Below are positions 16,717-18,386 of a stretch of 27,723 bases of DNA, piece after piece. The stretch spans positions 1-27,723 of IMG/VR virus record IMGVR_UViG_3300020347_000023, one strand, 5' to 3'. The translations under genes were made by a program, and so were the position numbers. This DNA comes from a virus. The number at the start of each line of letters is the position of its first letter. The stretch's first letter is position 1. Under the pieces are notes generated by a model. It searched no databases. It was given only the letters and a program-made list of their open reading frames with translations, and was not told the DNA's origin.

Positions 16717-16914
16717 TTAAAAAGAATCTGCAAGGTCTCCGCCATAGGTGATCGGCTCCCGTGTGTTTTCCGGTGTGGTCTCTCGACCTACCTCGACAGT
16801 ATAACCGGCAAGACGGGCGAGGTTCACGTCCTCCATTGTTCCGATTATATGTTCCTCCGGTGCCCCCGACTGGGTGCTTTGAAGGAAAAGGTGATATTCT
16901 GTTTTGTCTTTCAT
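16717..16914 (-). CDS. Hypothetical small protein downstream of the ribozyme (65 aa)
   Basis: The frame is open from 16950, but those extra codons lie in the hammerhead core, and the ATG at 16914 (MKDKTEYHLFLQ) carries the operon's recurrent leader (CCACATACTGAATATATAT). I therefore start there. The product is a small, probably alpha/beta domain with EEHIIGTMEDVNLARLAGYTVEVGRE, and ends in a polar tail (TYGGDLADSF). No family is recognised. The predicted ribozyme cut lies 56 nt before this start, so the gene's mRNA would begin with a self-cleaved 5'-OH leader. One copy of the GGTGCCCCC-GACTGGG repeat lies inside the coding region (16859-16879). Confidence 0.6.
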   Translation of the reverse strand: MKDKTEYHLFLQSTQSGAPEEHIIGTMEDVNLARLAGYTVEVGRETTPENTREPITYGGDLADSF

Positions 16915-16942
16915 ATATATATTCAGTATGTGGTTAGCTGAT

Positions 16943-16994
16943 GGTCTCATCAGTAGCAGAGTAACTGCTAGACTCTCCTAAGAGAGTTTCGACC
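16943..16994 (-). ncRNA. Hammerhead self-cleaving ribozyme, type II (open stem II)
   Basis: Reading the minus strand 5' to 3': GGUC (stem II, 3' strand, 16994-16991), GAA (16990-16988), stem III ACUCUC/GAGAGU (16987-16982 and 16977-16972) with loop UUAG, C17 (16971), stem I UAGCAG/CUGCUA (16970-16965 and 16959-16954) with loop UUACU, the core CUGAUGA (16953-16947), then GACC (16946-16943), closing stem II. Every conserved position of the hammerhead is present: C3 to A9, G12-A13-A14, the A15.1-U16.1 pair, the G10.1-C11.1 pair, and a GUC cleavage triplet. All three stems are perfectly paired. The cut is predicted between 16971 and 16970. The element shares one base with the stop codon of the upstream gene, so it lies in the spacer of the sense mRNA. 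Stem II has only four pairs. Confidence 0.9.
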
Positions 16995-17359
16995 TACTTG
17001 ATCTGTAGCTTGATCACGAGTTCGGCAGGCTTGGCACCCCATGCTTGCAACTGTCCCCAGTCGTTGACCCAAGGCTCAATGAGATCGCCGTTCTCATATC
17101 CATCGAGGCGAATGTGGCACCGCTTCAGCTCCGCCTTGGTTTCGTCGTTCCAGACACTCTCTACTGGGTCGAGTTCGACCCGATAGATGTGTGCGAGATT
17201 GCCCCTCTTCTTGCTGTTCAAAGCATAGAAGGTGTTGACCTTGGCATTTTTCAATGCGACCAACAGGTCTGAGTCTTTGCCCCAGTATCCATCGGTAGTT
17301 ATAACTACGTAGCGGACGAGGCTACTGCTCTTTACGTCCTTTTTGTTTTCATCAGTCAT
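16994..17359 (-). CDS. Hypothetical protein upstream of the ribozyme (121 aa)
   Basis: An upstream ATG at 17425 overlaps the ArdC stop, but its extra 22 codons would run through the perfect GCCCCCAG/CTGGGGGC palindrome and have low-complexity His/Ser/Pro content. I prefer MTDENKKDVKSSS at 17359. The product is a mixed alpha/beta domain: RYVVITTDGYWGKDSDLLVALKNAK near residues 14-38, then HIYRVELDPVESVW, then a final strand ELVIKLQIK. No family is recognised. The UAG stop is directly followed by the hammerhead, so this mRNA would end close to its stop codon with a 2',3'-cyclic phosphate after self-cleavage. Confidence 0.6.
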   Translation of the reverse strand: MTDENKKDVKSSSLVRYVVITTDGYWGKDSDLLVALKNAKVNTFYALNSKKRGNLAHIYRVELDPVESVWNDETKAELKRCHIRLDGYENGDLIEPWVNDWGQLQAWGAKPAELVIKLQIK

Positions 17360-17417: not shown

Positions 17418-18386
17418 TTAGGCATTCGTGATTAGATCAAAGGCTTTCTGAGCCTCCCTAGATGCCTTGAAGATCAGCTTCTTGTCAGCCTTGAGCACCT
17501 CTGCCCAGTTCTTGAAGTAAGCCTTGGAATTATCCTCAGTCTTAGCGAAAATTCCGTGAGCATTTGAGAGGAAGGAAGCGGTCAATTCAGCGACCAGTTC
17601 CTCTTTAGCATAGGGATCCGACCCGAACGTTGCCGGCTCGAGGCGGTCAAGCCGTGAGCTGTGCCCCGTGCTGTGTGCCATCTCGTGGAAAAACGTGTGG
17701 TAATATTCAGCAGGGCTGTGGAACTGAAGCATTAAGGGCATCTTGATGCTGTCGAGGCTTGGATTGTAGCAAGCCCTGTTTCCGCCTTGGCTGAAGGTTA
17801 CTTCTTCCCCGATCCACCGCTCAACAGTTGCACTACAGGCTTTAAATTCGGGTTCCTCGTGAGGCATCACGTCACCGGTCACAGCAGGCTCGGGCTTTGC
17901 TTCCTCTTTGAGATCAGTCTGATCTTGATTGAATGCGGTTGAGTATTTTTCATACATCACCTTCTTGATCTTGCCTGCCCGTGCCATAGCCTCGAGTGTC
18001 TTGATGCTGTGGGGCTTGCCCGGGATTAGCTTCTTGCCCAGTTTACCGCCTGCCCCGTGCTCAAAGAATAGCACCCCCCAGTAGACTACCGGTGTGCCCT
18101 TCTCACCTTTTTGGACCATACCGCCCTTGTCTTTCCATTGCTTGAAGGTGCCCCATGTAGTGGACTGAAAGCCCTGTGCATTTGCTTCCATCCAAAGCAT
18201 GAGGGTGTTGATGCCCTGATACTGTTTGCCTGATGAGACGTTAACGGGAAACTGCCCCGTCATGGCACCGCCTGCCCCGTTGCTTTTCCAAGGCTTAGTC
18301 CACGGATTAGTGCCCTTGCTTAGTGCCTCAATGAAGCGATTAGTAATAGTTTCGTGAAGGTCGATTTTTGCTTTTTTTGCTTTCAT
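17418..18386 (-). CDS. ardC: ArdC-like antirestriction protein (322 aa)
   Basis: The N-terminal half (residues about 5-110) has the ArdC single-strand-binding domain pattern: ITNRFIEALSKGTNPWTKPW, then SGKQYQGINTLMLW, then TWGTFKQWKDKGG and VQKGEKGTPVVYW. The C-terminal half is a zincin-type metallopeptidase domain with HEMAH at residues 234-238 and a conserved Glu some 25-30 residues later (EELVAELTASFL). ArdC proteins are carried by plasmids and phages, and protect incoming DNA from type I restriction and other nucleases. A Lys/Glu/Pro-rich linker lies near residues 155-175. The gene follows the 61-aa protein in the operon; its leader contains CTACTAAAT before the ATG. Early expression fits a protective role. 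Confidence 0.9.
   Translation of the reverse strand: MKAKKAKIDLHETITNRFIEALSKGTNPWTKPWKSNGAGGAMTGQFPVNVSSGKQYQGINTLMLWMEANAQGFQSTTWGTFKQWKDKGGMVQKGEKGTPVVYWGVLFFEHGAGGKLGKKLIPGKPHSIKTLEAMARAGKIKKVMYEKYSTAFNQDQTDLKEEAKPEPAVTGDVMPHEEPEFKACSATVERWIGEEVTFSQGGNRACYNPSLDSIKMPLMLQFHSPAEYYHTFFHEMAHSTGHSSRLDRLEPATFGSDPYAKEELVAELTASFLSNAHGIFAKTEDNSKAYFKNWAEVLKADKKLIFKASREAQKAFDLITNA

Follow-up and report, generated by a model that had tools for sequence, protein, structure and literature searches.

A type II hammerhead ribozyme with a core-complementary tail between two replication-region genes of a tailed phage

The window, which is the whole stretch of 27,723 nucleotides analyzed here (IMG/VR record IMGVR_UViG_3300020347_000023), carries a leftward operon with an ArdC-like gene, a gene for a 121-aa protein, a ribozyme and a gene for a 65-aa protein, followed by exonuclease, endonuclease VII, Erf and DnaB genes, among others. 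Based on these neighbors (ArdC, exonuclease, Erf, endonuclease VII and DnaB) the operon was assigned to the replication region and is presumably transcribed early. The nearest named record was Phage C75C1, with 58.6% for the major head protein and a similar gene order; none of its GAAA..CTGANGA stretches was found to be a hammerhead. The following features were identified around the ribozyme:

17418..18386, minus strand: ArdC-like anti-restriction gene (PF08401, PF18818, phrog_7245), two genes upstream in the same operon
16994..17359, minus strand: upstream gene, 121 aa; ATG at 17359, longer ORF from 17425
16943..16994, minus strand: type II hammerhead ribozyme, stem II (GGUC/GACC) open, stems I and III closed; based on sequence, covariance model and shuffles
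16972..16987, minus strand: stem III hairpin ACUCUC-UUAG-GAGAGU; based on sequence, with two-sided changes in relatives at 4 of 6 equivalent pairs
16970..16971, minus strand: predicted cleavage site, C17 (16971) / U1.1 (16970); hammerhead numbering on the sequence
16954..16970, minus strand: stem I hairpin UAGCAG-UUACU-CUGCUA; based on sequence, with two-sided changes in relatives at 6 of 6 equivalent pairs
16947..16953, minus strand: catalytic strand CUGAUGA (C3-A9); based on sequence
16938..16942, minus strand: core-complementary tail AUCAG; based on the minimum-energy fold and covariation with core N7 in viral relatives
16717..16914, minus strand: downstream gene, 65 aa; ATG at 16914, 28 nt past stem II

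For several homologs of the upstream gene the alignment began only close to the internal ATG, at about residue 21-32 of the longer ORF; the downstream 65-aa gene had no match among phage records. The gap that follows the ArdC-like gene, at 17418-17360 (minus strand), contains the hairpin CGGGUAAGCCCCCAGUCUGGGGGCACCC, which was kept in locus L171, the closest relative, too.

Read directly on the minus strand from 16994 to 16943, the ribozyme is GGUC-GAA-ACUCUC-UUAG-GAGAGU-C / UAGCAG-UUACU-CUGCUA-CUGAUGA-GACC. The core segments CUGAUGA, GAA and GUC agree with the type II requirement for CUGANGA, GAA and an NUH triplet, and stems I, II and III are composed of 6, 4 and 6 perfect pairs, with I and III closed and II open as is typical of type II. 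The UAG stop codon of the upstream gene lies at 16996-16994 and its G is the first base of stem II. An earlier note had proposed a complete type II hammerhead at this position, on the sense strand between the two genes, with a cut between 16971 and 16970. Its type, site, strand and position were all supported, the predicted cut following C17 at 16971, and its suggestion that the cut sets the stability or timing of the operon halves is a conjecture; what it overlooked was the core-complementary tail AUCAG and a minimum-energy fold that is not the active one.

The Rfam hammerhead II model (RF02276), which the same note had named as a check, gave no match in the window at its gathering threshold, nor when E was relaxed to <=1 for a 351-nt stretch or to <=10 for the record, and the site is thus not a member of the family by gathering score (37 bits). 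The same model does detect other phage loci, while L171 scored 28.7 bits against the cutoff of 37. A covariance model constructed from 59 viral ribozymes of independent loci, with the window and its nearest relatives L001, L002 and L171 left out, gave 74.2 bits (E 6.1e-19) at the site and 9.2 bits for the next match in the window, although part of the 74.2 bits reflects fixed letters since most of the 59 sequences were gathered by patterns demanding core and tail. The Rfam miss is therefore a gap in that model, given that the independent model finds the site and that L171 receives only 28.7 bits. RF02276 also gave no gathering-level match in L001, L007 and L073, which carry perfect short-stem-I type II hammerheads; surveys based on RF02276 hence undercount viral hammerheads, and a short-stem-I class is overlooked. 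With a strict descriptor (stem II of at least 4 pairs, stems I and III of at least 6, exact core), none of 8,625 dinucleotide-shuffled windows, searched on both strands, equaled the site. Together with the exact core, the perfect stems and the GUC triplet, this confirms, at the level of sequence, that positions 16994-16943 hold a complete type II hammerhead. Other Rfam RNAs, tRNAs and ribozymes were sought in the window and none was convincing.

The tail AUCAG follows stem II directly and is complementary to CUGAU of the catalytic strand. Folding indicated that C16943 and the tail can pair with 16948-16953, forming a six-pair hairpin (CUGAUG-AGAC-CAUCAG) which excludes the active core. In an energy model without tertiary contacts, the core-masked fold of the window was calculated at -21.8 kcal/mol and the active secondary structure at -19.4 kcal/mol; with longer flanks the minimum was -24.0 kcal/mol. 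The masked fold becomes the predicted best one once AUCAG is transcribed. Tail-bearing ribozymes were defined by N'UCAG placed right after stem II and complementary to C3-N7, a definition into which the ribozyme of the window falls with AUCAG and N7=U. The minimum-energy fold masked the core in 82 of 83 of them as compared with 0 of 50 short-stem-I ribozymes without tail. The masked fold was favored by a median of 2.4 kcal/mol across the tail-bearing ribozymes, again without tertiary contacts, and the near-constancy of this difference reflects the constant sequence rather than 83 independent facts. In viroid hammerheads an alternative fold can likewise mask the catalytic core, within a rod-like circular RNA, whereas here the masking would be done by a dedicated five-base tail adjoining stem II.

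The relatives were collected from viral contigs, in which a pattern scan for type II hammerheads gave at least 120 matches. Among about 80 distinct viral ribozymes with a tail, the first tail base was A in 68 of 70 with N7=U (G in the other 2) and G in 10 of 11 with N7=C (A in 1). The association is strong (Fisher p=3.8e-10), but the core-tail helix is for the most part necessarily invariant, and the covariation concerns a single pair, with some ten compensated cases that are partly related. In the full scan, 65 viral contigs contained GGUCGAAA..CUGAUGAGACCRUCAG and none a YUCAG tail with N7=U. The variant AUDAG was found in 1 contig, where its AUUAG still allows a G-U pair, and N7 other than U with any first tail base in 11 contigs, one of which (L188) lacks stems and is a chance match. 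Both N7/tail forms coexist within each of two single contigs (L126 and L139). Stems I and III of the relatives are nearly free in sequence yet paired, in 99% of cells, with two-sided changes numbering 275 across the entire active structure. Stems I and III being saturated with such changes, the constant tail does not stem from recent common descent. In L001 and L002 the identical tail occurs behind a different gene and a different stem III.

Among the matches listed, which were not selected for the tail, the exact 5/5 tail at that offset was present in 6 of 59 short-stem-I ribozymes (0.1 expected) and in 0 of 120 long-stem-I ribozymes, the latter class having fewer downstream core complements than its shuffles (7 vs 21). 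Across 84,980 bacterial species genomes the tail-bearing form gave a single pattern match, stemless and apparently within a coding sequence. No description of a core-complementary hammerhead tail was found in the open-access literature, and judging from sequence comparison a tail that is complementary to the core, conserved and covarying appears to be the new part of this finding.

In the type II hammerheads described by Perreault et al. (2011, PMC3088659), the tail after stem II contacts loop I, and the resulting pseudoknot stabilizes the active fold and speeds cleavage; such pairing is given there as an optional trait of about 40% of all hammerheads. Complementarity between loop I and tail reached z values of 14-21 in the long-stem-I class versus 0.4-1.8 in the tail-bearing class, not clearly above partner-swapped controls, and a loop I-tail pseudoknot was accordingly rejected for the latter subtype. 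The ribozyme in the window thus differs from the pseudoknotted type II; the RNA right after stem II is put to opposed uses, for pairing with loop I in the long-stem-I class and as a core complement in the tail-bearing one. The loops of tail-bearing ribozymes were enriched for UAUCU and UUACU.

The position at a gene border is common to all classes. A stop codon was located -1 to +6 nt from the ribozyme in 67/77 tail-bearing, 33/50 short-stem-I (without tail) and 94/117 long-stem-I cases, and a downstream ATG within 40 nt in 80/82, 43/47 and 102/119, respectively. Two or more type II hammerheads, up to a maximum of eight, were present in 34 of the 112 viral stretches examined, always on one strand. 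Proteins encoded on either side were mainly unknowns, together with helicases, methyltransferases, anti-restriction and superinfection exclusion proteins; they were diverse with no dominant family, and a conserved partner gene was rejected. Translation starting at the core AUG was also rejected: although this AUG and the downstream ATG share a frame in the window, they do so in only 14 of 69 tail-bearing cases, no more than expected by chance.

That hammerheads split phage polycistronic mRNA is not a new idea: it was proposed for type II ribozymes in 2011, and that report (PMC3088659) describes related phage ribozymes in the same setting which cleave in vitro and in E. coli. With the type II ribozymes of phages and bacteria (RF02276) described there the ribozyme in the window shares the core, the order of the stems, an open stem II, the GUC triplet, an intergenic place in phage gene clusters and the proposed cutting of polycistronic mRNA, and it differs by a short closed stem I with a 5-nt loop, a four-pair stem II, the absence of the pseudoknot and the core-complementary tail. 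The hammerhead of haloviruses HF1/HF2 (HHphage) is likewise viral, in an early region and shortly upstream of a gene, a helicase gene in that case, and was suggested to set an mRNA 5' end; it has a variant core, belongs to an archaeal virus, and no core-complementary tail is reported for it in the text consulted. The clustered hammerheads of A. tumefaciens resemble the window in their prophage setting and nearby anti-restriction gene (ardA), which they flank, and cleave in vitro and in E. coli; theirs is a triple arrangement around ardA, whereas the window has a single ribozyme two genes after the ArdC-like gene (PMC3088659).

Given the cleavage shown for the related phage type II ribozymes, it is very plausible that the operon transcript is cut as well. 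Self-cleavage would split the leftward replication-region mRNA of this tailed phage between the 121-aa and the 65-aa genes. Type II geometry implies that both new ends carry a closed hairpin: the stem III hairpin would terminate the upstream mRNA some 24 nt past the stop codon, while the downstream mRNA would begin with a 5'-OH and stem I. Because the tail complements the catalytic strand, the RNA should be able to switch between cutting and non-cutting shapes: AUCAG would compete with stem II and core for CUGAUG, making the RNA bistable. After the cut only the four-pair stem II would join the halves and, having lost its covalent link, it would probably yield to the tail hairpin, which sits entirely in the 3' product adjoining stem I. 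Formation of this hairpin would strip stem II apart, free the upstream mRNA and block re-ligation, so that cleavage runs one way, and it would leave two stacked hairpins (stem I and tail) at the 5' end of the downstream mRNA.

From the anatomy, the position, the conserved and covarying tail and the predicted masked fold we infer cutting in the cell and a tail acting mainly after the cut. We put the probability at roughly one half (0.48) that the ribozyme cuts the mRNA and that the main role of the tail is in release, irreversibility and 5' protection. A complement to the core bears directly on the speed and regulation of the ribozyme, and it is fairly probable that the window carries a member of a distinct phage hammerhead subtype, whose co-evolving, core-masking tail turns the self-cleaving RNA into a natural bistable switch by which cuts of replication-region mRNA are timed or locked. 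What phage hammerheads are for has been an open question since 2011, and a tail co-evolving with the catalytic strand offers a specific hypothesis, namely one-way cleavage with product release or an off-switch before cleavage. It also provides a compact, naturally occurring template for switchable ribozymes.

The off-switch is the main rival and a possibility that we take seriously, if tentatively. The tail hairpin would hold the new ribozyme off and operon cleavage would be delayed or conditional, the candidate triggers being temperature, Mg2+, an RNA-binding protein of the phage or its host, or a ribosome that terminates at the abutting stop. Inhibition might be the main effect of the tail, given that the masked fold is predicted before cleavage as well: it ranks best from the moment AUCAG has been made, and likewise in 82 of 83 relatives. 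The calculated difference, however, amounts to only ~2.4 kcal/mol with tertiary energy excluded. The deficit of core complements in the long-stem-I class looks as if they were harmful to activity. A terminating ribosome is expected, from the stop position, to cover part of GGUCGAAAC; however, abutting stops are common without the tail too and hence are not specific to the subtype, and no second conserved element was seen as a possible sensor.

It is unlikely that the ribozyme is an ordinary constitutive hammerhead whose tail is unrelated to the core and serves protein binding, a non-canonical loop I contact or a role in DNA. The tail does lie directly after stem II, where loop I is contacted in the type II ribozymes described in PMC3088659, and the loop motifs UAUCU and UUACU are enriched; covariation of the first tail base with core N7 is not predicted by a loop or protein contact, and loop I-tail complementarity does not stand out from the controls. 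Still less credible is the view that the RNA is no longer a ribozyme and that its three hairpins are mere mRNA structure at a gene border. The minimum-energy fold indeed consists of three hairpins without an active core, and homologs of the upstream gene mostly bear a different structured RNA there, but the window and L171 retain an intact core and four-pair stem II, for which the hairpins have no use, and stem II changes are compensated in relatives (4 of 59 rows). The argument from the intact core is limited for the relatives, as they were found by patterns requiring it. Chance assembly was deemed already refuted: look-alikes to a looser descriptor (stem II of at least 2 pairs, others of at least 3) did arise 943 times in the 8,625 shuffled windows, but none of the quality of this site, which the independent model scores at 74.2 bits, while L001 and L002 share the right half and L171 has a homologous site with altered stems.

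Comparison of the window with L001, L002 and L171 revealed that the ribozyme halves assort separately, stem III going with the upstream gene and the right half being common to contigs whose flanking genes differ; recombination borders may be marked by the ribozyme. Homologs of the upstream gene were located in 18 viral loci, of which only L171 has a hammerhead at that border. In most others the same stop codon is followed by CCACAGC-hairpin-GCUUUCUGGGU-hairpin and then AUG. This element showed 10 pairs with two-sided changes, across both hairpins, had no Rfam match and was detected by pattern in 37 viral stretches, a few evidently by chance (loci include L192:3343-3408, L193:3343-3407, L212, L217, L220, L226 and L245, among others). 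It is a candidate new phage structured RNA, possibly a processing element. Just before the upstream-gene homologs, at the border opposite to that of the hammerhead in the window, RAGATH-24 directly followed by a twister-P1-like ribozyme was observed in L193, L199, L201, L204 and others, the twister-P1-like matches being below the Rfam cutoff with E down to 2e-9. Such gene borders look like places where one RNA element can be exchanged for another. In four contigs sharing one gene with the window, tmRNA-family matches of ~67 nt were also noted (L197:2718-2784, L198:2863-2929, L201:5167-5233 and L208:1759-1825), which are probably a tmRNA fragment or mimic.
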